Assembly (NCBI GenBank): GCA_013290045.1
Contig: JABCYU010000003.1
Location: 1-44,410, forward strand
Length of the DNA stretch: 44,410 nt
Direction: 5' to 3'
DNA from: Methanobacteriota archaeon
GTDB taxonomy: Archaea > Thermoplasmatota > Thermoplasmata > Lutacidiplasmatales > UBA184
The notes beneath the pieces were generated by a model. The model was not told where the DNA came from. It did no database searches and worked only from the letters and a program-made list of their open reading frames with translations. The translations under genes and the position numbers were made by a program. Shown here one piece after another: positions 3,952 through 35,676 of this stretch (its first letter is position 1; each line of letters begins with the position of its first letter).

Positions 3952-4698
3952 TCACGGAGGTCGGGACTCTTCTGGATGGGCCGTGGTCCGGTGGCCCTGC
4001 TCGGGGACGAGGCCGTCTCGGAATCGGATGGAGGCGTGACTCCCGTTGCAGAACGGCATGTTGTCGGACGCGCCGCAACGGCAGAGGGTGACGCGGTTCC
4101 TCCTCTCGTAGGCCTTTCCGTCCTGGGATTCGATGCGCACCCCGCCTCGGACCCAGATAGGGCCACTGCAGTGCAGGGCCGTGTCCTCGACAAGCCCGAT
4201 CGACGGCGGAAGCGGCGACTCGATCATCTCCCCCGTCTTCTTGTCATGGAGCACGAGCCGGCCGGCCGGGCAGTGGTTCGCCTCCCGGACGACCAGCTCG
4301 GCGATCTGCGGGTCGTCCGTCCGCCGGATCAGGCTCCAAATCTTGCCCCCCGGGTCGCAGAATCGGGCAAACGCGCAGTACTGCTCGGCATCGTCGAGCA
4401 CCATGGTCGGCCCTACCTCCTGCACCGACTGGCGAGCCAGAGGCCGACGGGAGGCGGTTTCCTCCCCCTCGAACCCGACCGCCAGGTGCGAGTTGTCGCA
4501 GAAGGGCTTGTTCTTCGACTGGCCGCAGCGACAGAGAAAATATTCGTTCGCGGTCTCGAACGATCGACCTTCGGTCCAGTCCCACGACTCTCTTGCAGAG
4601 TTCGGGGTGATCATCTGCAGGGCAAGCGGTACTTTCCCGAGGACTCGGTAAGGCCCCCGCTTCATCACGACGATCTTCGGCTCCTGTTCGTCTCCCAT
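3952..4698 (-). CDS. Double CDGSH iron-sulfur protein
   Basis: A 248-residue protein with two CDGSH-type 2Fe-2S binding motifs: CRCGQSKNKPFCDNSH (around residues 55-70) and CRCGASDNMPFCNGSH near the C-terminus. Both keep the three Cys and one His ligand pattern C-x-C-x2-S-x3-P-x-C-x2-S-H. Between them lies a Cys-containing segment (CAFARFCDPGG and HCPAGRLVLHD) typical of the middle domain found in microbial CDGSH proteins. Such proteins carry redox-active Fe-S clusters in the cytoplasm; the electron partner is unknown. It is monocistronic as far as visible, with an ATG start. Confidence 0.9.
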   Translation of the reverse strand: MGDEQEPKIVVMKRGPYRVLGKVPLALQMITPNSARESWDWTEGRSFETANEYFLCRCGQSKNKPFCDNSHLAVGFEGEETASRRPLARQSVQEVGPTMVLDDAEQYCAFARFCDPGGKIWSLIRRTDDPQIAELVVREANHCPAGRLVLHDKKTGEMIESPLPPSIGLVEDTALHCSGPIWVRGGVRIESQDGKAYERRNRVTLCRCGASDNMPFCNGSHASIRFRDGLVPEQGHRTTAHPEESRPP

Positions 4699-5782: not shown

Positions 5783-6370
5783 CTAGTCCGTCACCGGGAT
5801 CCCGTCTCGCTCGATCGTCTCGAGAAGGGCGGGATTGAAGCGGCGCGATAGGTGGGCACGGGTCAGCACGAGGTTGGACAGGCTGTTCCCAAATCTCTCG
5901 GCGAATCGTTGGCTGGCCCTGGCGAGAGCCTCGGCGACGACCTCGCGAGCTGCCTCGGTACGGACCTGAACGAACAGGTCGATATCGCTGAACGGCTGTT
6001 CCTCGCCGCGGGCCACCGATCCAAACACGAGGGCGCGGTCGACCGGTAGACCTTCCAGCGCCTTCTGAATATCCCGTTTCAAGAGCCGAGGGAGGCTCGC
6101 TTCATCCTCGAAAAGGCGCTGGAGCGGCGCCACAAGGACATGACCGGCGGAGATGCGCCAGACATGCGCCCTCCCTGCCACCTCGTGGGCGGCCAGACCC
6201 TCGTTCGCGAGGGACACGAGCGCTTGGTTGGTCTGAGAGGGGGATGCGCCGATGAGCCCGGCCACTTCCCTACCCGTCAGGCCGCGAGACCCCGACCGGC
6301 AGAGGAGGCGAAGGACGTCTACCCGGATGGGGCTCCCGAGAATCTTCGTCAGGGGCGAACGGAAGCGCAT
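5783..6370 (-). CDS. wHTH-nucleotidyltransferase (MNT) fusion, candidate antitoxin and autoregulator
   Basis: A 195-residue protein. Residues about 8-75 form a winged helix (LTGREVAGLIGASPSQTNQALVSL recognition region, wing HEVAGRAHVWRI). Residues 105-170 form a minimal nucleotidyltransferase with GSVARGEEQPFSDID at 117-131, the G-S-x10-S-D-x-D active site. It is the first gene of a two-gene unit with the HEPN gene. The promoter carries a perfect 9-bp inverted repeat over the TATA box, and no leader, so autoregulation through the wHTH is likely (inference). MNT enzymes of this type AMPylate the HEPN partner in the MntA/HepT system (known); whether this one does is untested. Confidence 0.88.
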   Translation of the reverse strand: MRFRSPLTKILGSPIRVDVLRLLCRSGSRGLTGREVAGLIGASPSQTNQALVSLANEGLAAHEVAGRAHVWRISAGHVLVAPLQRLFEDEASLPRLLKRDIQKALEGLPVDRALVFGSVARGEEQPFSDIDLFVQVRTEAAREVVAEALARASQRFAERFGNSLSNLVLTRAHLSRRFNPALLETIERDGIPVTD

Positions 6371-6386
6371 GCTCGATTATTCCAAC

Positions 6387-6410
6387 ATATGTATGGTAAA
6401 TCATACATAT
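6387..6410 (-). promoter_or_regulatory. Operator palindrome overlapping the TATA box of the wHTH-MNT gene
   Basis: ATATGTATG at 6387-6395 and its exact complement CATACATAT at 6402-6410 are separated by 6 bases. Read on the minus strand, the distal arm forms a TATA-like TTATATG about 30-40 bases before the ATG at 6370, so the transcript would be leaderless or nearly so. A dimeric wHTH bound here would block TBP. Confidence 0.75.
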
Positions 6411-6412
6411 AA

Positions 6413-6904
6413 GGCCCGCGGGGTAGCGACCCCCGTCGATTCGATCGTTATGGGGGAGGGTGGCAGGGTCGGCCGACTGCAGCCCGGTCCGATCAGCTCC
6501 TCGACGGGGGCTCTCGGCCAGCCGGCTCACTCGGGTCCCCATGGTGGGGACTGGTTGCTGCCCAACCAGTAGCTCATCAGCCGGTCCGCCGAGTGCAGGG
6601 ATCCACTCGGACTTTGCGTCCGGCTGACGCGGGTGGGTCGCTGGAATGGTCCCGCCCCGTCGACGAACGGTTTCGCGGCCGATATCGGGAACCCGCAGTG
6701 TTCCCACCGCCTGGTCCCGTCTCGGGAACGACACCCGGTACGGTTCTTGGGCTCTGAGGTCAAAGAAGGAGAGGATACTCTGGTCCAGGATTCCCGCTGC
6801 CCCCCTGGCGGTGGCGACGCTCATGGCGCTCAGGGCCTGCCTTCGGGGACTTCACCAGACGAAGAACTCGCGCCGAGCGTGAGGCTCGATCCCGGCGCCC
6901 GATT
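6413..6904. other. Spacer with no supported gene
   Basis: Open frames on both strands give no recognisable domain. The stretch leads into the transposase remnant, and may include more decayed parts of that element that can no longer be read. Confidence 0.35.
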
Positions 6905-18032: not shown

Positions 18033-19052
18033 ATGTCGCAGTCCAGGACCCCGAGGGGGGCGAGGACTCAACGCCACCAGGGGCATCCCCGCTCGCTGCT
18101 GGGCGGGGGGTCGTCGAGCGCGAGCGGTTCCTTCCCGACCGGAGGTCATTCCGGGGTTGAGTTTGGGTTGGACAGGGCCCCGCCCCGAACCGAAGAATGG
18201 ACGTCGGAAGTCACCCGATTTCTGGCTGCCAAGGACAAGGAGAGTCCGGTCGGAGAGAACTGGAAGAGGCGGATGCGATGGGAGCTCTCCCGAGTTCCCG
18301 ACCTCCTCCAGAGGCTCAGCCCGGCGACGACGCCCTCGAGGGCGGCCGATCTGAATTCAGATCACGTCCTTGCTCTCCGGACGGGGATGGGTTGGGAGAA
18401 GGCCACTCTCGCTCTCCACTTCGCGGCCCTACGGCAGTTCCTCGCGTGGGCCGGGAATCCCATCGCGACCCGGAAGAGCGTTTGGAGGTTGCCGTCTGGA
18501 CAGTCGAGCCGGCGGAGGTGGTTAACGAAAGACCAGTTCGAACGGTTGCTCTCCGCCGCAGTTGGTCCCGCAAAGGCTCTCGTAGCACTGGAAGGGCTGA
18601 ACGGCCTGCGACGCGTAGAGGTCCTGCGCCTGCGGAAGAAGGACGTACTGCTGGAAGAAGGCTGTCTCCGTGTTCTGGGCAAGGGGAGGGACGGCGGGAA
18701 GTGGCGGACGATTCCGATGCATCCAGAGGTTCAGTCCTTCCTGTCCGACTTCGTCATCAAGCTGGATCCGGAAGCCAGACTCTTTCCGGTAAGTCAATCT
18801 GGCGCAGACGGGATGCTCCGCCGGGCGGTCGATGCGGCCGGCTTTGGGGGAGAGGGGGTCCGAATCTCCCATCATGACCTCCGGCGAACATTCGGCAGAA
18901 TGGCTCATCAGTCGGGAATGGATCTCATCCAACTGAAGAATCTCTTCGGCCACAGTTCGGTGGAGATGACGGTCCACTACATCGGGATCGACGCAGACGA
19001 GATGCGCTCTGGCCTAAACCGAATCAGGCTCGGAACGAGGCCAGGTGAATAG
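18033..19052 (+). CDS. Tyrosine recombinase / integrase
   Basis: A 339-residue site-specific recombinase. All catalytic residues are present: Arg193 (LNGLRRVEVLRL), a beta-2/3 Lys near 217-223 (GKGRDGGKWR), His281-x-x-Arg284 (SHHDLRRTFG), His307 (FGHSS) and the nucleophile Tyr316 (VHYIGI). Residues about 53-145 form the helical core-binding domain (LALHFAALRQFLAWAG). The first ~45 residues are low-complexity; a TTG at 18168 (LDRAPPRTEEW) is an alternative start. It lacks the extra insert between boxes that marks integron integrases. It opens the accessory island and could act on the repeated GTGCAA/TTGCAC sites (inference). Confidence 0.92.
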   Translation: MSQSRTPRGARTQRHQGHPRSLLGGGSSSASGSFPTGGHSGVEFGLDRAPPRTEEWTSEVTRFLAAKDKESPVGENWKRRMRWELSRVPDLLQRLSPATTPSRAADLNSDHVLALRTGMGWEKATLALHFAALRQFLAWAGNPIATRKSVWRLPSGQSSRRRWLTKDQFERLLSAAVGPAKALVALEGLNGLRRVEVLRLRKKDVLLEEGCLRVLGKGRDGGKWRTIPMHPEVQSFLSDFVIKLDPEARLFPVSQSGADGMLRRAVDAAGFGGEGVRISHHDLRRTFGRMAHQSGMDLIQLKNLFGHSSVEMTVHYIGIDADEMRSGLNRIRLGTRPGE

Positions 19053-20361: not shown

Positions 20362-20568
20362 ATGGCCCTCGAGGTCCTCTACAGTCGACATGCAAGGCAA
20401 AGGATGGTGTTGCGGGGCATTTCGAGCGATGAGGTCGAGATTGCCATTCGGACGGGTGCGAAGTCCCGACAAGGCCCCAGAGTCGTCGCGGCGCATAGCT
20501 ACTTCGAAGTAGTCTATTTGGTAAGGGGGCGCAAGATTATCGTGATCACGGTGAAACCAAGATGGTAG
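20362..20568 (+). CDS. DUF4258-type toxin candidate
   Basis: A 68-residue protein with the DUF4258 pattern: YSRHARQRMVLRGISSDEVEIAIRTG, then SYFEVVYLVRGRKIIVITVKP. The H-A-x-x-R-M-x-x-R-G-I-x-x-x-E-V-x-x-A-I opening and the C-terminal VITV strand are the family marks; these proteins pair with YgiT-type antitoxins and are related to BrnT/MqsR-like RNases (family knowledge). A TATA-like CTTTAAGGG about 27 bases before the ATG implies a leaderless transcript. It overlaps the next gene by 7 bases. Confidence 0.82.
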   Translation: MALEVLYSRHARQRMVLRGISSDEVEIAIRTGAKSRQGPRVVAAHSYFEVVYLVRGRKIIVITVKPRW

Positions 20569-20906
20569 CGAAGGCAGAGAAGTGCCCGGTCTGTGGGAAG
20601 GGTAGGCTGAAGCCGGCAATGGTCCATGAGGAGATGTTCGGGGTGGAGCTCGGGAACTACCCTGGGGAGGTGTGCTCCAATTGCGGGGAGACATTCCTCA
20701 CGACCGAAAGTATGCGGGCCATTGAAGTGCGCGCCAGGGAGTTGGGCCTCTGGGGTCTCGCCTCCAAGGTCAAGGTCGCAAGATCGGGCAATTCGCTCGT
20801 AGTTCGAATCCCGGCTCCCCTAGCCCAGTACTTGAGATTGAAGAAGGGCCAGGAAGTCATGGTCAGCCCTGAGAAGGAAAACCGGCTCGTGCTAGAACTC
20901 GCCTGA
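20562..20906 (+). CDS. Antitoxin: YgiT-type zinc finger fused to AbrB domain
   Basis: A 114-residue protein. Residues 8-45 form a YgiT-type zinc finger (CPVCG, then CSNCGE, ligands Cys8, Cys11, Cys38, Cys41). Residues about 68-114 form a SpoVT/AbrB swapped-hairpin DNA-binding domain (SKVKVARSGNSLVVRIP, then YLRLKKGQEVMV). In MqsA the zinc finger binds the toxin and an HTH binds DNA; here an AbrB domain takes the HTH's place. It overlaps the toxin gene by 7 bases, so translation is coupled. The unit is bracketed by motif copies at 20282 and 20929. Confidence 0.88.
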   Translation: MVAKAEKCPVCGKGRLKPAMVHEEMFGVELGNYPGEVCSNCGETFLTTESMRAIEVRARELGLWGLASKVKVARSGNSLVVRIPAPLAQYLRLKKGQEVMVSPEKENRLVLELA

Positions 20907-23292: not shown

Positions 23293-24003
23293 ATGCGAGT
23301 TGAAGAGTTCTTCCGGGCACTGATTCCGCAAACAGCCCCGATCAACATGGGGTTCTACAATTGCTCGAAGGACCCGAGCGTCCCGAAAACGGCGGCATTG
23401 CTAAGGGAATCCGATCTCGACTGCCTTGTTCTCTGTGGTGGTAGGATGGCGGAAATGTACCCCAGGGTCATGGAGGGCCTTGGCAGCCGACCACGGTTCC
23501 CGGTCTTCACCTTTCTCTCAGACATCGACTCAGTCGTCGCGGGTAGCGACGGCATTTTGTTCGGCTACGTTCTCAATCAGTACCCGCAGGTAATCACCCC
23601 CATACACGCGGCGGCGGCTCTTAGTGTCCGGGACAAAGGGGTGAGTCATGTTGGCGTAGCATGCTTGGAGGTCGAGCCATGCCGGGCGACTCTGGGGGGC
23701 TGGCCCCGATCACAACACGTGATTTCTATGCGGGACATCGACGAAGCGGTCCGACTCTCCTCGGTGGCCCGCCTCGCAAGGAACCTTCTGATGGTCATCG
23801 ACCCGGGGGTGGATTCTGTGGCCGAACCCTCGCTAGTCAAGGCGATTTCTTCGATAGCCCGCTTGCCGTTGATCGTCACCGGCGGCAGACGACTCGGGAG
23901 TCAACAATCTGAGGACCTCGTTGGCGCAGGCGCGCGGGGGATAGCTCGCTATTTCGAGAATTCGGAGGACATCCGTGAATATGTCGAAGGGCGGGTCAGA
24001 TGA
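23293..24003 (+). CDS. Divergent GGGP synthase (PcrB-family) homologue
   Basis: A 236-residue protein with the strand order of geranylgeranylglyceryl phosphate synthase, which joins a prenyl diphosphate to glycerol-1-phosphate in archaeal lipid synthesis. Matching blocks: KDPS near residue 26 (for DPDK), DLDCLVLCGGRMAEMYPRVM (for the DA-x-x-x-GGS region), FPVFTFLSDIDSVVAGSDGILFGYVLNQYPQ (for the FPG...ADA...SLLNS-x-NP region), LLMVIDPGVDSVAEPSLVKAI, and LPLIVTGGRRLGSQQSEDLVGAGARGIA (phosphate-binding end). Several substrate residues differ, so it may use another acceptor. The ATG at 23293 is chosen because homology starts just after it. Convergent with the UbiA gene (8-base overlap). Confidence 0.75.
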   Translation: MRVEEFFRALIPQTAPINMGFYNCSKDPSVPKTAALLRESDLDCLVLCGGRMAEMYPRVMEGLGSRPRFPVFTFLSDIDSVVAGSDGILFGYVLNQYPQVITPIHAAAALSVRDKGVSHVGVACLEVEPCRATLGGWPRSQHVISMRDIDEAVRLSSVARLARNLLMVIDPGVDSVAEPSLVKAISSIARLPLIVTGGRRLGSQQSEDLVGAGARGIARYFENSEDIREYVEGRVR

Positions 24004-24862
24004 ACCTACCGACAATGAAGGCGATGAGCGCAATCAGCATCCCGTACTTCATTAGCGACTCGGGGCGTCGCGGAGTTCCCTGGAAGAGTACGATGACTGA
24101 GTAGAGAAAAATCGCGTCCGCGACAGCGACGATTTCGAGATAGGTGATGCTAACGATTCCGGACAGAAAGAAAGGGATCGGACTTAGCAAGACGGCACCC
24201 AAGACCATCGACGCAGAAATCCCTCGAGCAAAGGGAAGGCCGTATGTCCGCGGAATCGTCTTGCGGTCGACATCTCCCTCGACGTCGCTTATATCCTTCG
24301 CGACCTCGCGTCCTAGTATCGAGAGGAATGAAAGCGTGGAGAAGAAAAGAACCGGAGTAAGATTGCCAACGATCGAACCACCGAATAAGAACAGAAGACC
24401 GGTCTGGCCGGCGATTACAACATTGCCGACAGACTTCAGTTTCTTCGCGGCAAACTCGTAGCACATCTGAATTGCTATGGCCAGGATTACGATCGCGAGT
24501 GCAACGCGAGGTAGGAAGATCGCGCCAGCGATGGCGATTGCAAATAGGGAGATCGCAATCGCGAGCGCGACTCGCGGACTCAGTGCCCCTCTGGGAAGGG
24601 TTCTATCCGGTCGATTGATTCGGTCAACCTCTATGTCCAGGTAGTCATTCAGCGTATTCCCTGCGCCAACGCTGCAGAAGACAACCAGGAAGCATAGGCA
24701 GACGTCGAGTAGGATGCTCGTGGTAACCTTCCTGCCCGCCGCTACGATTAAGCCCGCTACTCCCCCGAGCCCGGCTAACCCCGCGGTGCTCAGTCGAACG
24801 AGAGCCGTGCCAGCGTGCAGCTTCGAACCGAAAGAGGGGCGCTTCTCATCAATACCCGTCAT
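23996..24862 (-). CDS. UbiA-family prenyltransferase (DGGGP synthase-like)
   Basis: A 288-residue membrane protein with about eight or nine hydrophobic spans. Both Asp-rich motifs of UbiA enzymes are intact: NDYLDIEVDRINRPDR at residues 72-87 and KDISDVEGDVDRKT at 189-202 (Asp190, Asp193, Asp197), which bind Mg-diphosphate of the prenyl donor. The sequence resembles archaeal digeranylgeranylglyceryl phosphate synthase, which adds the second ether chain; the acceptor cannot be fixed. The start lies 5 bases after the stop of the cis-prenyltransferase-like gene, so they form one transcript. Confidence 0.88.
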   Translation of the reverse strand: MTGIDEKRPSFGSKLHAGTALVRLSTAGLAGLGGVAGLIVAAGRKVTTSILLDVCLCFLVVFCSVGAGNTLNDYLDIEVDRINRPDRTLPRGALSPRVALAIAISLFAIAIAGAIFLPRVALAIVILAIAIQMCYEFAAKKLKSVGNVVIAGQTGLLFLFGGSIVGNLTPVLFFSTLSFLSILGREVAKDISDVEGDVDRKTIPRTYGLPFARGISASMVLGAVLLSPIPFFLSGIVSITYLEIVAVADAIFLYSVIVLFQGTPRRPESLMKYGMLIALIAFIVGRFI

Positions 24863-24867
24863 ACGAA

Positions 24868-25755
24868 CTAAAATTCGTACACTTCGGGGCCTGTGGGACT
24901 GAACAGTACCACTCGCTTCGTGGGGTTGCGCCGAAGTCTCCGTCGAGTGAATTCCAAGGCCACCTCCCGAGCGGAGCGGATGCGCACTTTGGCATCTCCC
25001 TTGTAGTCCATGGAGTAGTGAGTCCCCTCGTTGGCGACCTTGCTCCGCAGTGCCAAAGTCACGAGCCAGACCAGTTGTTCGTCTGTCCAGTTCTGGCTGG
25101 AAGAACCGTTCTGGACGTAGACGAACGTGTTATCGTCGAGTTTGTCGAAAAGCCACATGTCACCATTTACGTAACCCTTAGTGTGTCGGACGATGACGTT
25201 GGCTTGTGGAAGCGCATGTTTGGTGGGATGATATGCGTCCCAGCGTGTCGAGTAGTTCATCAAGAAAAATACCGTCAACTTGGAGGCCCTAGGAACCGAA
25301 GTCAAGGTTTCGAGGCTTCGAAGTTCTCGCTGCAGGTCGAGTGCCCGAGAGCCCTTCGGGTCTAGACTTTCTTCGTGATTACCGATGAATCTCAGAGCGA
25401 CGCCGTGGTCGGTCGCATAAGAGCCGTAGATTCCCAGGAGCTTCGTCAATCCTTGGTATATGTCATGGTAGTTGGACCGGAGCTTGTGTCTAGTGTGGAT
25501 GACGTTCACGTAAAGATTTCTGACCCCAAGCTGTCGAAGAATCTCAATCAACCTGACACAGAAGATACCTCCGTCGACGTAGGCATCGGCCCCTTTGAGC
25601 AGAGATGATGTTCGGGTCCCGTCAGTCATCTCGTAGATGACTAGCTCTTGAACCCGGGCCATAGGATCATCGATCCTGAGGCGGGACGCGGCCTCAAGGA
25701 ACTGCCGGCGTGTGGCCGACTCTACCGGTAGGGCAACCGATTCCTTGCCTGGCAT
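24868..25755 (-). CDS. Divergent cis-prenyltransferase (UppS/DHDDS-like) homologue
   Basis: A 295-residue protein. It follows the cis-prenyltransferase layout: MTDGTR at residues 43-48 (for MDGNRR, with the catalytic Asp), DGGIFCVRLIEILRQLGVRNLYVNVI, GVALRFIGN, FFLMNYSTRWDAY (for the NYGGR-x-E/D block), VIVRHTKGYVNGDMWLF (for the IRTSGE-x-R-S-N block) and FVYVQ, later WTDEQL (for the WPD-x-T block). The second-substrate region is altered (YVNGDM instead of the Arg/Ser pair), so a typical long-chain synthase is doubtful. The ATG at 25755 is chosen because a TATA box (minus-strand ATATAC) lies 30 bases upstream; the frame is open farther upstream but without homology. Confidence 0.7.
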   Translation of the reverse strand: MPGKESVALPVESATRRQFLEAASRLRIDDPMARVQELVIYEMTDGTRTSSLLKGADAYVDGGIFCVRLIEILRQLGVRNLYVNVIHTRHKLRSNYHDIYQGLTKLLGIYGSYATDHGVALRFIGNHEESLDPKGSRALDLQRELRSLETLTSVPRASKLTVFFLMNYSTRWDAYHPTKHALPQANVIVRHTKGYVNGDMWLFDKLDDNTFVYVQNGSSSQNWTDEQLVWLVTLALRSKVANEGTHYSMDYKGDAKVRIRSAREVALEFTRRRLRRNPTKRVVLFSPTGPEVYEF

Positions 25756-26303: not shown

Positions 26304-27242
26304 GTGAACCCGGCCGCGGGAGTATCGTCGAAACCGCTCCGAGGGATCCTGAAGGCATTACTGGTGAGGAGCTGGACGACTCCGATCAAGGACCCGGAGG
26401 GGCTCGGCATCGCGAAGGTAGCCGACGGCATTACGCTCGCTGTGGTGGGGATTTCCGCGGCGCTCCTTGGTAGCTTCGAGTACACCCAAGCTCCCCACTA
26501 CCCTGTCTGGTTCCTCCATTGGGCTTTGTTCGAGCCGCAGAGTGCGGGGTGGTACGCCGCAATCGCCATCCTCGGGACCCTGACACTCGCCATTTTCTAC
26601 AAGGCATGGAAGTACTATTCAGGGGCGCCAAATCAGGGCTCCAAGGATGGAATCTTCAAAACCGAGATTCTTCAGGCGAATGCGCTGGAAGTGATCATCG
26701 ACGCCGTCATCGCCGCCCTAGGGGGTCTTCTAATCTCTCTGGCCATCTTCGTCCTTCCAGTAGCGTGGTTCGTCTGCTTCGCCGTATACTCATTCTTTGT
26801 TCTCCTGAGATCGGTGGTCACTCTGATTCGCCCCCGACTCGCTCGTCACCATTATCGCAATGAGATCGACACTGATGTTCTTCAGCGTGTGTGGATTGAT
26901 AGTGTAACACGCGGGGTGTATCCGCCTCGGCGACCTGGAGATACCAAACCACCCATAGAGATTCGCTACATCTTCTCGGGGTGGGTCGTTTCGCATGCCA
27001 TTTGGGCGGGGTATGGGGCCGCCGCTGCTGCCGTCCTCTGGTTTGTCCGAATACCCGAACTGTGGTCAATCGCGACCCTCTACGTGTTACTGGTGGTGCT
27101 AATCGCGGGCCAGTTTGGTCTCTCGGAAACCTCGACGCGGTGGGGAATGAAGCTATGCCACAGCGACTCGTGGAATTCCAGATTTGGACTCGAAACTTCG
27201 GATTCGGTCGCGACCATCGCGTTCCAAGAAGGTATTGGTTGA
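26304..27242 (+). CDS. Unrecognised integral membrane protein
   Basis: A 312-residue protein starting at GTG. Hydrophobic spans lie near residues 42-60 (ITLAVVGISAALLGSFEY), 80-100 (WYAAIAILGTLTLAIFY), 128-150 (VIIDAVIAALGGLLISLAIFV), 151-170 (FVCFAVYSFFVLLRSVVTLI), 225-245 (AIWAGYGAAAAAVLWFV) and 250-270. A basic soluble loop (residues about 174-210) separates the halves. No family is recognised. It is transcribed away from the prenyl gene cluster and is part of the same motif-bounded block, so a membrane-lipid role is possible but unproven. Confidence 0.7.
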   Translation: MNPAAGVSSKPLRGILKALLVRSWTTPIKDPEGLGIAKVADGITLAVVGISAALLGSFEYTQAPHYPVWFLHWALFEPQSAGWYAAIAILGTLTLAIFYKAWKYYSGAPNQGSKDGIFKTEILQANALEVIIDAVIAALGGLLISLAIFVLPVAWFVCFAVYSFFVLLRSVVTLIRPRLARHHYRNEIDTDVLQRVWIDSVTRGVYPPRRPGDTKPPIEIRYIFSGWVVSHAIWAGYGAAAAAVLWFVRIPELWSIATLYVLLVVLIAGQFGLSETSTRWGMKLCHSDSWNSRFGLETSDSVATIAFQEGIG

Positions 27243-29223: not shown

Positions 29224-29649
29224 CTAAACCGGGCATCTCATGTCGAATCTCCGGCAGAGGTCGCGAAGCCCTCCCGCCCACATCTCCGCCTTCTGCGCAG
29301 CGGCTGACTTGAAGTCGGCGTCTATTGGGACCCGATCTATCAAATGCGTGTTCCTTGCCCGCTCCTTCCCATCGAGCCGCTGGTGTCGCCTCACGCTACT
29401 TTCTAGCATCGGGACCAGAGCTTCCGCCTGACGTTGATCGAGGTTGAAAACGTCGTCGTACCTGGCAAAGCCACGCGTGGAAACGTTCGGGAAGTATTCG
29501 GCGGTGAAGTCCGAGTCATCATGGCAGTAGTACTGTAGGGCTTGGCGAATGACTCCCGCGGTGATCGGAGTGAGCAGACGGCCCCTGGGGGTCGGATCCA
29601 TGGGTTCAGATGCAGGCGCAGGCCCGACGGACGGCTTCCCAGCGCTCAT
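29224..29649 (-). CDS. Unrecognised protein, downstream partner of a CcdA-like antitoxin
   Basis: A 141-residue protein overlapping the upstream gene by 4 bases (ATGA type), so tightly coupled. It holds ITAGVIRQALQYYCHDDSDF, then DDVFNLDQRQAEALVPMLESSVRRHQRLDGKERARNTHLIDRVPIDADFKSAAAQKAEMWAGGLRDLCRRF; the latter half is helical. No CcdB, PIN or RelE features are visible, so if it is the toxin it belongs to an unrecognised type. Confidence 0.6.
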   Translation of the reverse strand: MSAGKPSVGPAPASEPMDPTPRGRLLTPITAGVIRQALQYYCHDDSDFTAEYFPNVSTRGFARYDDVFNLDQRQAEALVPMLESSVRRHQRLDGKERARNTHLIDRVPIDADFKSAAAQKAEMWAGGLRDLCRRFDMRCPV

Positions 29650-30194
29650 TTCCTTTGACCTCCGCGGCCAGTCGTAACTTGGCCGGCCTTGGTTCGCCGC
29701 GATTCCTGTTCAGTCAATGCCTCGACGAACTTCTTGGCGAGGACGAGCGACTCGACCTCCTCGCGACGACGGGATTTTTCCGCTTCTATCGCTGTGAAGA
29801 AGTTCTTCAGGATCTGGTTCGGCCTCAGGAAGCTCACTGATGCGGCCTTGACCGAAACGTTGTACACGGTGTCATCGTCATCGGACCGGGTAGGATCTTC
29901 GCAAAGGAGGCCATCTACGCCGTAGGAGACGGGAACTGATTCTTGGATCGCCCCGTCCCAAAATGTTCCAACAACGACCTCGCAGTGAAACTTCTGAATG
30001 AGGGGATCCATGCTCGTGAGTAGTTCCTCGTACTGCGACCGTGTCGCTCCCCTCTCCAGGCGCTCTGGATCGAAGGTGTAGCCCTTCAGAATGCGTTCAG
30101 TCAGCTCCGAGATGTTCAGGCCAAGCTTCTTGGCCGCCTCTACGGTGTCGCCATCAACGGTCAGCGTCAGCTTCTGCTTAAGTTCGGGAGGCAT
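29646..30194 (-). CDS. Protein with CcdA-like antitoxin N-terminus
   Basis: A 182-residue protein. The N-terminus KLTLTVDGDTVEAAKKLGLNISELTERILKGY (residues about 8-39) is the ribbon-helix-helix pattern of CcdA-type antitoxins (V-x-x-A-K-x-L-G-x-N-I-S). The following 140 residues (FHCEVVVGTFW, then YNVSVKAASVSFLRPNQILKNFF, then a coiled charged helix with EAEKSRRREEVESLVLAKKF) are an unusual addition. The ATG at 30194 is chosen because a TATA box (minus-strand TTATAT) is centred 25 bases upstream. Three CACGTG sites around the promoter are likely operators. Confidence 0.7.
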   Translation of the reverse strand: MPPELKQKLTLTVDGDTVEAAKKLGLNISELTERILKGYTFDPERLERGATRSQYEELLTSMDPLIQKFHCEVVVGTFWDGAIQESVPVSYGVDGLLCEDPTRSDDDDTVYNVSVKAASVSFLRPNQILKNFFTAIEAEKSRRREEVESLVLAKKFVEALTEQESRRTKAGQVTTGRGGQRK

Positions 30195-30205
30195 ACGTGG
30201 GGTAG

Positions 30206-30244
30206 CACGTGCCAGGATATAATGTACACGTGTTCGCACACGTG
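30206..30244 (-). promoter_or_regulatory. Promoter with TATA box and three CACGTG boxes
   Basis: CACGTG occurs at 30206-30211, 30227-30232 and 30239-30244. The TATA box (ATATAA on the plus strand, 30217-30222) lies between the first two. The palindromes flank or overlap the promoter of the CcdA-like gene and fit autoregulation by a ribbon-helix-helix dimer. Confidence 0.6.
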
Positions 30245-30444
30245 CCTCACACAAACCAGCCCCCGCGTGGGAGCCAGTCCCATCCGACCTGCGCGAGTCC
30301 GGTCGCAGACCACCCTTCGAGCATCGTCAGGTCGATGGAAGGGCACCTGCAGCTCGGACCGGGCAGGTTGTGGGGGTAGCAACCAAGTAAGGAACGGGGG
30401 CAAAGTTTTCCGTGGCACCCTGGATTACCCTCGAAGCCGTTCGG

Positions 30445-32474: not shown

Positions 32475-32502
32475 CTTGGCGCTAACTAGGCCCCATGCGT
32501 CA

Positions 32503-33381
32503 ATGAAGACTTGGGGAGACTTAGCGCCTGACCGCCGTCAGGCAGAGGCGGGTTCATTCCTGAAATGGGCTGGGGGAAAGGCCCAGGTCTATCTTTCCCT
32601 TCGGAAGTTCATTCCTGAGCTCCGGGAGGGAACCTACTATGAGCCGTTTCTCGGTGGCGGAGCGGTCTACTTCGCCCTAAGCCCAGAACGAGCTGTGTTG
32701 TCGGACATCAATCGCGAGCTCATTGTGGCCTATCAAGTGGTAAGAGACGATGTCGAGGGATTGATTGGGGCGTTAGCCGCCCTGCCATCACACCCGACCT
32801 CGGCAGAGTTCTACGAGACGAGGTCGACCTTTAACGAGCTCAAATCGAGGTCGGGGGCTCGATCGCCAGGAGCGAAGAGAGAGCTGGCGGCTCGCTTCAT
32901 CTGGCTGAACCACACCTGCTTCAACGGTCTCTACCGGGTGAACTCCAAAGGGGAGTTCAACGTTCCGATGGGCTCGTACCGAAACCCGAGAATCTACTCG
33001 CCGGGGAACCTTCGCGCGGTGAGCCGCTTGCTTTCCGGAACCCACGCAAGGATTCTCTGCCTCGACTTCGAGACCAGCCTCGCCCGGGCTGGGGACGGGG
33101 ACCTGGCGTACCTCGATCCGCCCTACCAGCCGGTCTCTGCAACCGCCAGCTTCACCTCCTACACTAGATCAGGATTCGGCCCCGAACAACAGCAACGCCT
33201 CGCGGCGGCGGTCCGTGCAGCGGTGGCCCGGGGCTGCAGAATCGTGCTGAGCAACTCGTCGACGAGTTTCGTAAAAGGGCTCTACATCGGAATGCGAATG
33301 GAGACGGTTCGGGCTCCCCGGGCGATCAACTCGGTCGGCTCGAAACGGGCCGCGGTTGAAGAGTTGGTCGTTGTCGCATAG
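32503..33381 (+). CDS. DNA adenine methyltransferase, Dam/DpnM (D12) class
   Basis: A 292-residue N6-adenine methyltransferase. FLKWAGGK (residues 19-26) and YEPFLGGGAVYF (46-57) bind SAM, LSDIN (66-70) is the acidic loop, and DPPY (205-208) is the catalytic motif. Length and order fit the Dam/M.DpnII class, which usually methylates GATC (known for many members). The start at 32503 follows a TATA box by about 30 bases. It faces a second, beta-class methyltransferase and a DpnII-like endonuclease, the three parts of DpnII-type systems. Confidence 0.92.
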   Translation: MKTWGDLAPDRRQAEAGSFLKWAGGKAQVYLSLRKFIPELREGTYYEPFLGGGAVYFALSPERAVLSDINRELIVAYQVVRDDVEGLIGALAALPSHPTSAEFYETRSTFNELKSRSGARSPGAKRELAARFIWLNHTCFNGLYRVNSKGEFNVPMGSYRNPRIYSPGNLRAVSRLLSGTHARILCLDFETSLARAGDGDLAYLDPPYQPVSATASFTSYTRSGFGPEQQQRLAAAVRAAVARGCRIVLSNSSTSFVKGLYIGMRMETVRAPRAINSVGSKRAAVEELVVVA

Positions 33382-33419
33382 GCGCAATCCGATTCGGCCA
33401 CGCCCCTCGTCCTCGGACC

Positions 33420-34406
33420 TCACCACCACTTCGAGCTCTCCCGAAACACTGACGCCGACTCTCCATGGGCTGGCTTCCGGAATACGTACAGGTGTTCATG
33501 AGCGAGGAGGAGGAAGTCGTACTTCGATCCTGACCAACTCTCGCGTGTGGACTTCATCTTCCACTGGACTTTAGTGATGTCTTCCCTGAGGACAAACCCC
33601 GCCTCCAGAAACGACTGCATGACCCGGACCGAGATGGGAACGAAGTGCCGATGCCTTCGAGTGTCCCCCATCAAGATGGCGCAGTGCCGCCCCGGTCGGA
33701 CGACCCGAAAGAATTCGCCCGCAGTCGCACGCATTTGGTCGACGAACTCCGACACGCTTCTGATGCGCGAGAGGTCCCCGGCAATCCGGTCACCCGAGTA
33801 GGCGACAATGCTGGCATACGGGGGGTGGGTGGCCAATAGATCAACCGAGTCGGAATGGATCTCGTCGAGATCCCGCGCGTCCCCGACGTACGTCCTGATC
33901 TCCGGTTCGACGTGATCGGGGTCCAGCGAACCCAAGGCGAAGTTCAGCCGATCTCGGGTAACCATGATGGCATCGCGATTAATGTCCACCCCGATACCAC
34001 GTCGATGTAGCAGCCTGCACTCGGTCAGGGTCGTCCCGCTACCGACCATCGGATCGAGGACCAGCTCCCCCGGGGCGCTGTACCGCAAGAGCAGGTTCCT
34101 CGGGATGTACGGCGACCAGTTTCCCCGGTAGTTTCCCGAATGGGTTGCCCAGTCTCCTCGGTCAGGGAAGGACCAGACGGTGGTCCGCTCCGGCTTGTAC
34201 TCGGCAGGGGGGCCAATGGAGTCAATTGTGTACGGGCCTCGGAGACCCAACTCGACGCTCTCTATACCGACCGACCCGTGGGTCGCTCTGAATCGCACGT
34301 AGTCGGCCTGGGTCACCTCCAGCATAGGCTGGGGGGCCGTCTCAAGCACGGCAGAGGACATTGCCCTCCGCTTCCTCGGCCGTGGCTTGGTCTTTCCAAG
34401 GGTCAT
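33420..34406 (-). CDS. Beta-class DNA methyltransferase (DpnA-like second methylase)
   Basis: A 328-residue enzyme. The catalytic motif THPPYASI comes after the SAM motif LVLDPMVGSGTTLTECRLLHRRGIGVDIN, with the target domain in front; ILMGDTRRHRHF follows. THPPY is a variant of the S/T-PPY and DPPY motifs of N4-cytosine and N6-adenine methylases. The ATG at 34406 is preferred because a TATA-like GCTATACCC lies about 35 bases upstream; an upstream in-frame start at 34514 would leave only 19 bases to the divergent endonuclease gene. In DpnII-type systems the second methylase modifies single strands or the same GATC site; specificity here is not known. Confidence 0.82.
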   Translation of the reverse strand: MTLGKTKPRPRKRRAMSSAVLETAPQPMLEVTQADYVRFRATHGSVGIESVELGLRGPYTIDSIGPPAEYKPERTTVWSFPDRGDWATHSGNYRGNWSPYIPRNLLLRYSAPGELVLDPMVGSGTTLTECRLLHRRGIGVDINRDAIMVTRDRLNFALGSLDPDHVEPEIRTYVGDARDLDEIHSDSVDLLATHPPYASIVAYSGDRIAGDLSRIRSVSEFVDQMRATAGEFFRVVRPGRHCAILMGDTRRHRHFVPISVRVMQSFLEAGFVLREDITKVQWKMKSTRESWSGSKYDFLLLAHEHLYVFRKPAHGESASVFRESSKWW

Positions 34407-34492
34407 GAACGATGAGAGCTGGTCAGCCTGAGAGGAGGGTATAGCCTGAACGGGTGACTCGGGGAACCACCATCCGAGGTCCGTCCTAGTAG

Positions 34493-34510
34493 GTGCAATC
34501 AGCATTTCAA
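34493..34510. repeat. Dispersed palindromic motif, copy 13
   Basis: GTGCAA, centre TCAGCA, TTTCAA. Its right arm is degenerate. It lies in the divergent promoter region between the methylase and endonuclease genes, 24 bases before the endonuclease start. Confidence 0.55.
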
Positions 34511-34533
34511 CCACGGCCGGCTCGATCCTAAGG

Positions 34534-35676
34534 ATGTCTTCGGCGGGACAGCGGCTGACCGAGTTCTTCGCGACTCTTGACGTCGCTGGCGATGAGCCGA
34601 TAGGAAAGCCTGCGGGAGCGCTTCCCGAAACCCTTAGGCCAGCCTTCCCCGACGCGAAAGAATTCTACGACCTGCTTGGCCAAGTGCAAGCCGTTGGCAG
34701 TAGAGCACACGACGTGCCAAGTCAAAAGCACATCCTCGCTCTAATCCTAGAAAACGACCCGCGATTGTTCTTGGTCCTGTCCCATCTGCATAGACAGATT
34801 CGATTCACCAACGTAGAGATAGCTCGAACCTTGTTCGACCCGAAACGGCTCGATGACCCCGACTACTACACTGGAGCACTCACCCGCGACCCCGAGTTTC
34901 GGAGGGCGTACTCGAAGGCCCGAAAGTGGCGAGAACTCGAGCTTTCGGGGGTGAACTCGCGGACCGGAACCCTAGCGGCGGGCAAGAAGGCCATCAGCGG
35001 CTACATGGGCTCTGAAGAAAGGTGTTGGGAGCTATGGCTCTCACGGATTCGATCTGACCCAGAGACAAGGGAAAGGGTCATCGACTACCTATTCGACCAT
35101 GAAGATCTAGGGGAGCTGATACAGGAGGGTGCCATAGAACAAGCCCTTCGCAGGAGCCTACGTACTACGAATGTCGAGAAGGTGAAGTCCCTCCGCGGAA
35201 CATTTGGAGCTGGGAAGATACGACGAATCCTCCAGGAGGGAGGATTCACCTCGACCGACCACGAGGGGGAGCAGAGCGACATCTCGGACCTGCCTCAACT
35301 CGCGAAGAGAAATGCGCTGGTGGGACCCCTGTTCGCCAGCGAGGTGAACTGGGAGAAAGAGAAGCGCTTCGACTTCGCCCTCTTCAACCAGCGTGAGGTG
35401 CGGTTCGTGGTGGAGACCACGTACTACTCCACTTCCATGTCGAAAATCGGCGAGGTGATCAAGCACTTCGAAGATTTGCGGGCGAAGTGCGCGGACAGCT
35501 TCCATCTCTTCTTCCTCACCGACGGGATCGGTTGGTTCGGCAAGGTGAAGGACATTCGTAGGATGCTGGGCTTTGGAGCCGAGGCGGCAGATGGCACCGG
35601 TCAGTTCCCATATCTGCTAACATACCATCAATTCACCGACCTGTTGCCGGAAATCACCAAGGCTCTCAACGGCTAA
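34534..35676 (+). CDS. DpnII/MboI-like restriction endonuclease
   Basis: A 380-residue protein. The C-terminal third shows the DpnII-type core: KRFDFALF, then REVRFVVETTYYSTSMSKIGEV (Asp280, Glu294, Lys304), parallel to the F-D-F...E-T-N-F-Y...G-S-K-L-N-E block of DpnII enzymes. Upstream residues (SGYMGSEERCWELWLSRI, then KSLRGTFGAGKIRRIL) have the helical layout before the core. The N-terminal ~110 residues are longer than in DpnII and unassigned. Together with the two methylases it forms a type II system that probably cuts GATC or a related site (inference). ATG start, divergent from the second methylase. Confidence 0.82.
   Translation: MSSAGQRLTEFFATLDVAGDEPIGKPAGALPETLRPAFPDAKEFYDLLGQVQAVGSRAHDVPSQKHILALILENDPRLFLVLSHLHRQIRFTNVEIARTLFDPKRLDDPDYYTGALTRDPEFRRAYSKARKWRELELSGVNSRTGTLAAGKKAISGYMGSEERCWELWLSRIRSDPETRERVIDYLFDHEDLGELIQEGAIEQALRRSLRTTNVEKVKSLRGTFGAGKIRRILQEGGFTSTDHEGEQSDISDLPQLAKRNALVGPLFASEVNWEKEKRFDFALFNQREVRFVVETTYYSTSMSKIGEVIKHFEDLRAKCADSFHLFFLTDGIGWFGKVKDIRRMLGFGAEAADGTGQFPYLLTYHQFTDLLPEITKALNG

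Follow-up and report, generated by a model that had tools for sequence, protein, structure and literature searches.

A UppS-fold protein family as a candidate non-homologous GGGP synthase, encoded beside a DGGGPS-like gene on an archaeal genomic island

Results

Lipid genes on a low-GC island

The window, i.e., the whole stretch of DNA that was analysed, is an entire 44.4-kb contig of a 2.23-Mb Thermoplasmatota genome that is 89.5% complete. Open reading frames and coordinates (Table 1) confirm an arrangement described in an earlier note on this DNA, in which a GGGPS-like gene (P0001) converges on an operon of a cis-prenyltransferase gene (P0003) and a UbiA gene (P0002). The convergent genes P0001 and P0002 overlap by exactly 8 bases (23996-24003). 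P0002 lies downstream of P0003 on the same strand, and the gap of 5 bases between them suggests that the two genes probably form one transcription unit.

Table 1. Coordinates of the lipid-related genes and of two flanking features in the window
Feature	Position	Strand	Evidence
P0001: divergent GGGPS-like TIM-barrel protein, 236 aa	23293..24003	+	NCBIfam NF003198 E=1e-7
P0002: DGGGPS-like UbiA-family prenyltransferase, 288 aa	23996..24862	-	PF01040 E=1e-34; 6m31 E=1.6e-39
P0003: cis-prenyltransferase-fold protein, 295 aa; proposed non-homologous GGGP synthase	24868..25755	-	UppS fold, family residues
Tyrosine integrase, left edge of low-GC island	18033..19052	+	PF00589 E=2e-17; GC shift
Predicted membrane protein, upstream, divergently oriented	26304..27242	+	no family match

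The GC content is 61-69% across the first ~20 kb of the contig and 56-62% thereafter, the drop being located just after the integrase gene. Restriction-modification, HEPN, and toxin-antitoxin-type genes are found downstream of the integrase, and the setting is thus correctly described as a defence-type island. No direct repeats of at least 14 bases were found that connect the integrase region with the remainder of the island. Because the left 18 kb of the contig matches the GC content of the genome, mis-binning is not favoured. The predicted membrane protein has no match in Pfam, NCBIfam, or PADLOC, and there is no evidence that it is a member of the lipid module.

Other genes of the contig include a Type II restriction-modification set at 32476-35676, which consists of a Dam-type methyltransferase, an N6/N4 methyltransferase, and a DpnII-like endonuclease. 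A HEPN_Swt1-domain protein encoded at 27884-28807 matches the PADLOC candidate family PDC-M34B (E=6e-18), and a CcdA-like antitoxin gene, which overlaps by 4 bases with a small gene of unknown family (29224-30254), may form a toxin-antitoxin pair with it. In the small protein encoded at 20562-20906, an MqsA/YgiT-type zinc finger is joined to a C-terminus that is MazE/AbrB-like. The gene at 3952-4698, which lies in the contig's high-GC part, encodes a divergent 4Fe-4S domain together with two CDGSH iron-binding stretches.

The host genome also encodes the ordinary enzymes. Its canonical GGGPS gene (C42; PF01884, 167.5 bits) adjoins a UbiA gene, two further UbiA genes are present besides that one, and a canonical UppS is encoded at C134 (271 bits). 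The lipid genes at 23293-25755 are, therefore, extra copies in a genome with its own GGGPS, DGGGPS, and UppS. The earlier note had proposed a check for such separate genes, and regarded the island genes as simply housekeeping if they were the only copies in the genome and had all catalytic residues intact. Since the standard genes exist elsewhere, the housekeeping reading is ruled out, and the view of the island genes as divergent extra versions is supported.

The flanking GGGPS-like gene and the UbiA gene

The GGGPS label of P0001 is weak but real. The protein scores 31 bits against NF003198, compared with a cut-off of 247, has no Pfam match, and is similar to the GGGPS of its own genome at E=1.3e-5. 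Of 19 columns that are near-invariant in GGGPS (at least 95% conserved among 34 canonical enzymes), P0001 keeps nine. The ten losses include the Asp of the IDP motif, which is metal-binding in characterised GGGPS, the Tyr of YLEAGSG, and residues of the phosphate loops (the GGGI and GT loops). P0001 thus reaches neither the curated Pfam and NCBIfam cut-offs nor the active-site residues of canonical GGGPS (PF01884). Neither viral contigs nor 390 genomes of the phylum yielded a close relative; the genomes gave only weak matches to canonical-type GGGPS at 20-32% identity. Judging from these comparisons, P0001 is probably decayed or repurposed, and outside the conserved module.

The assignment of P0002 to the UbiA family is certain, and both Asp-rich motifs (NDYLDIEVD and KDISDVEGD) are present. 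P0002 is a clear homolog of M. jannaschii DGGGP synthase (6m31), from which it differs in being an extra copy on an island and in scoring ~212 bits, below both NCBIfam equivalog cut-offs (269 and 296). It is about equally identical to the DGGGPS proteins encoded beside P0003 homologs in the Methanoperedens order (38-41%) and to the DGGGPS of its own genome (38%).

Fold and motifs of P0003

P0003 falls below the threshold of the cis-prenyltransferase family PF01255 (E=0.06; 13.3 bits, with a cut-off of 27), and a member of its family gives E=6e-6 against TIGR00055 (25.8 bits, with a cut-off of 109.55). Sequence searches of solved structures with P0003 and with its profile returned only noise. 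The AlphaFold model used here was built from 24 sequences and has a pLDDT of 84 and a pTM of 0.87 (an earlier model from 6 sequences gave a pLDDT of 65). Foldseek matches this model at E ~1e-7 to UppS-type enzymes, including Rv2361, UppS, and Rv3378c; the predicted fold of P0003 is that of UppS. In alignment with true UppS sequences, strands and helices are colinear. Because the profile-profile match of P0003 to three UppS sequences is weak (14.5% probability), homology to UppS rests on the fold together with the colinearity of motifs.

The two substrate sites differ in their conservation. In the allylic-diphosphate motif DGNRR, P0003 keeps DG-x-R, with the Asn and the second Arg changed. The IPP-site motif RTSGExRxSN and the Glu downstream of it are missing, being replaced by [RK]H[TA]KGxxNxxxW and QN(G/A)S(S)xxNW. 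Thus, P0003 resembles the cis-prenyltransferases (UppS/DHDDS, PF01255) in fold, in DG-x-R, and in colinear alignment, but not in its score against their profile or in the IPP-binding motif. The P0003 family is a previously undescribed family separate from UppS.

Distribution of the family and near mutual exclusion with canonical GGGPS

A contig search with P0003 alone found nothing, and its relatives in Methanoperedens and Aenigmatarchaeota were revealed by a profile search. Close relatives (43-50% identity) are encoded by Aenigmatarchaeota, by Ca. Methanoperedens, and within the order of the latter, while no relative was found in 100 related genomes. The maximum-likelihood tree nests P0003 inside the clade formed by the Aenigmatarchaeota and Methanoperedens-order proteins, and P0003 keeps 59 of the 65 residues that are invariant in 18 other family members. 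A viral or plasmid origin of P0003 was also considered, but neither viral contigs (single and profile queries) nor phages and plasmids yielded a homolog.

Five low-GC Thermoplasmatota (L028, L047-L050) have a distant subfamily (28-32% identity), and their genomes also have canonical GGGPS; this subfamily possibly serves another prenyl-lipid pathway. Its genes mostly adjoin those of a geranylgeranyl-reductase-family flavoprotein and a HAD phosphatase, and some of these loci also hold B12-radical-SAM-like genes.

In the two groups with close relatives, carriers of the family typically lack canonical GGGPS. Among 150 genomes of the Methanoperedens order, PF01884 was found in 1 of 17 carriers versus 124 of 133 non-carriers (Fisher p=2e-14); among 156 Aenigmatarchaeota genomes, the corresponding counts are 0 of 6 and 102 of 150 (p=0.001). 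It should be noted that these counts ignore shared ancestry, and that few independent events may be behind them. The sole Methanoperedens-order carrier with a GGGPS (G457) has an atypical copy, which scores 127.8 bits, compared with at least 198 for nearly all others. In four genomes (G458-G461), a full-length PF01884 match was absent even at E<=0.1. By contrast, G1PDH (PF13685 match) is kept in 16 of 17 Methanoperedens-order carriers and in all six of the Aenigmatarchaeota. In carriers of both groups that lack PF01884, the P0003 family would occupy the gap in the pathway that follows G1PDH and precedes DGGGPS.

The atypical GGGPS, encoded in Ca. Methanoperedens MnB_21 (L121:8460-9272), reads VVDSGSGS instead of YLEAGSGA, and a GGPP-synthase-like gene lies at 5841-6752 of the same locus.

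Gene neighbourhoods

All five intact Aenigmatarchaeota contigs show the same order, namely G1PDH, the P0003 homolog, and a convergent DGGGPS-like UbiA gene; in a sixth contig, which is truncated, G1PDH is also near the homolog. One of these G1PDH proteins passes the NCBIfam equivalog cut-off. Three Aenigmatarchaeota loci with a P0003 homolog also contain canonical UppS as a separate gene, so that the P0003 family is not the UppS of these organisms. Of the 17 carriers in the Methanoperedens order, nine have a UbiA gene of the DGGGPS-like type less than 4 kb from the P0003 homolog, and in four the two genes are adjacent. The L111 locus also holds genes that, as we read them from their N-termini, presumably encode isopentenyl phosphate kinase, mevalonate kinase, IDI2, and GGPP synthase. 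Outside the window, then, P0003 homologs keep company with lipid, isoprenoid, and housekeeping genes, and not with defence genes.

Several Methanoperedens-order loci (L108-L110, L112-L115, L120) share, upstream of the P0003 homolog, a gene for an acyltransferase-like membrane protein of the HGSNAT type, and most of them also have an NAD-epimerase-like gene upstream; Pfam confirms the HGSNAT assignment for L062 only.

No GGGPS-like gene stands beside a P0003 homolog at the examined loci, which rules out a conserved trio. The unit that is conserved consists of P0003 and UbiA and excludes P0001, with its ten lost columns and no close homolog.

Discussion

GGGPS is regarded as a hallmark enzyme of the archaeal membrane and serves as a marker in studies of the 'lipid divide'. 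To our knowledge, the first bond in all archaeal membrane lipids is formed by this enzyme. In our opinion, the P0003 family is a good candidate for a non-homologous GGGP synthase that replaces the TIM-barrel GGGPS, and the island would then carry a second ether-lipid pair; we put the probability of this reading at roughly 0.7. The proposed enzyme would join geranylgeranyl diphosphate to sn-glycerol-1-phosphate, forming GGGP and with it the first ether bond, and P0002 would subsequently add the second chain. The allylic-diphosphate site with its DG-x-R would have been kept, and the IPP site rebuilt for G1P. We infer the reaction, the substrate, and the stereochemistry of P0003, as well as the expression and activity of the window copy. 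The island would thus bring a GGGPS-equivalent and a DGGGPS into a Thermoplasmatota genome that already holds the ordinary pair.

Two known enzymes are instructive for comparison. Canonical GGGP synthase (PcrB/GGGPS, PF01884) would share with the P0003 family the reaction and the slot between G1PDH and DGGGPS, and the distributions of the two are complementary; however, PcrB/GGGPS is a TIM barrel, unlike the UppS fold predicted for P0003, and has no sequence similarity to it. The tuberculosinyl transferase Rv3378c, which is among the best full-length fold matches of P0003, has the UppS fold and joins a prenyl diphosphate to adenosine, a non-IPP acceptor (PMC7321100). Prenyl transfer to a non-IPP acceptor is what we propose for P0003, although Rv3378c uses a different acceptor, comes from other organisms and another genomic context, and is only ~13% identical to P0003.

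The members of the family could, alternatively, be true cis-prenyltransferases, with the UbiA protein attaching a special cis-polyprenyl group to glycerol-phosphate or another acceptor and so producing an unusual lipid or carrier, an idea already found in the earlier note. The UppS-type fold, the retained DG-x-R, and the weak match of a family member to the UppS profile TIGR00055 all fit such a scheme. We nevertheless regard it as unlikely: the IPP-site motif is missing, a canonical UppS stands alongside in three loci, and the scheme leaves both the absence of GGGPS and the retention of G1PDH in carriers unexplained. UppS/DHDDS enzymes belong to a glycan-carrier context, whereas the genomic partner of the P0003 family is the ether-lipid pathway. 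The identification of P0003 as a cis-prenyltransferase holds as far as the fold is concerned (Foldseek), but what had been taken for a glycan-carrier enzyme would be a separate family standing in for GGGPS. A slightly less likely alternative is that P0003 homologs mark lineages or play an accessory role in lipid metabolism, that GGGP comes from another source (for instance, a GGGPS that escaped detection, or UbiA catalysing the two steps itself), and that the exclusion is a phylogenetic coincidence. Counts made without correction for phylogeny leave room for such a coincidence, and distant members of the family do coexist with GGGPS, as does one carrier that has both. On the other hand, two archaeal groups that are only distantly related both show the exclusion, the linkage to G1PDH and DGGGPS is recurrent, and G458-G461 show no trace of a full-length PF01884 protein at a permissive threshold.

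The remaining questions concern the window copies themselves. Because canonical GGGPS and DGGGPS are present, the activity of P0003 would be redundant in this host. It is conceivable, though in our view rather improbable, that the island genes are inactive passengers, acquired with the defence island and now without function, a reading that is compatible with the assignment of the family. The host's own set of lipid enzymes, UppS included, the lack of P0003 relatives in the 100 related genomes, and a neighbour (P0001) without most of its active-site residues all point that way. Both reading frames are intact, however, P0002 retains its Asp-rich motifs, and P0003 preserves nearly all family-invariant residues in spite of an overall identity of only 42-50%. 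Far less probable than any of these is antiviral defence through an altered membrane or a lipid effector. Membrane remodelling against virus entry and a small lipid effector had been suggested previously, and beyond the proximity of restriction-modification, HEPN, and toxin-antitoxin-type genes we find nothing to support them: homologs elsewhere have lipid-related rather than defence-related neighbours, the adjacent membrane protein has no PADLOC match, and phage, plasmid, and viral collections yielded no homolog. The idea of an unusual product fared no better, as the simplest product predicted for the island pair is ordinary (di)geranylgeranylglyceryl phosphate.

Our literature search returned no relevant paper that treats GGGPS in connection with Methanoperedens or Aenigmatarchaeota; preprints were outside its scope, and earlier publication is possible. 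Lipid analysis of Ca. Methanoperedens (ANME-2d) is reported to have shown intact polar lipids (Kurth 2019, as cited in PMC10635418). Provided that they are ordinary ether lipids, a working first ether-bond step is required in this organism.

Taken with the candidate GGGP synthase assignment, a broader picture appears somewhat more probable than its opposite: an unrelated UppS-fold enzyme took over the first committed lipid step in ANME-2d and some Aenigmatarchaeota, and moves horizontally with DGGGPS on integrase-bearing islands such as the one in this Thermoplasmatota genome. If this is true, the missing enzyme of the ANME-2d methane oxidisers would be supplied, and surveys based on the presence of GGGPS would misjudge which organisms make ether lipids. 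The first ether-bond step would have evolved at least twice, and would be able to travel between archaea on islands.
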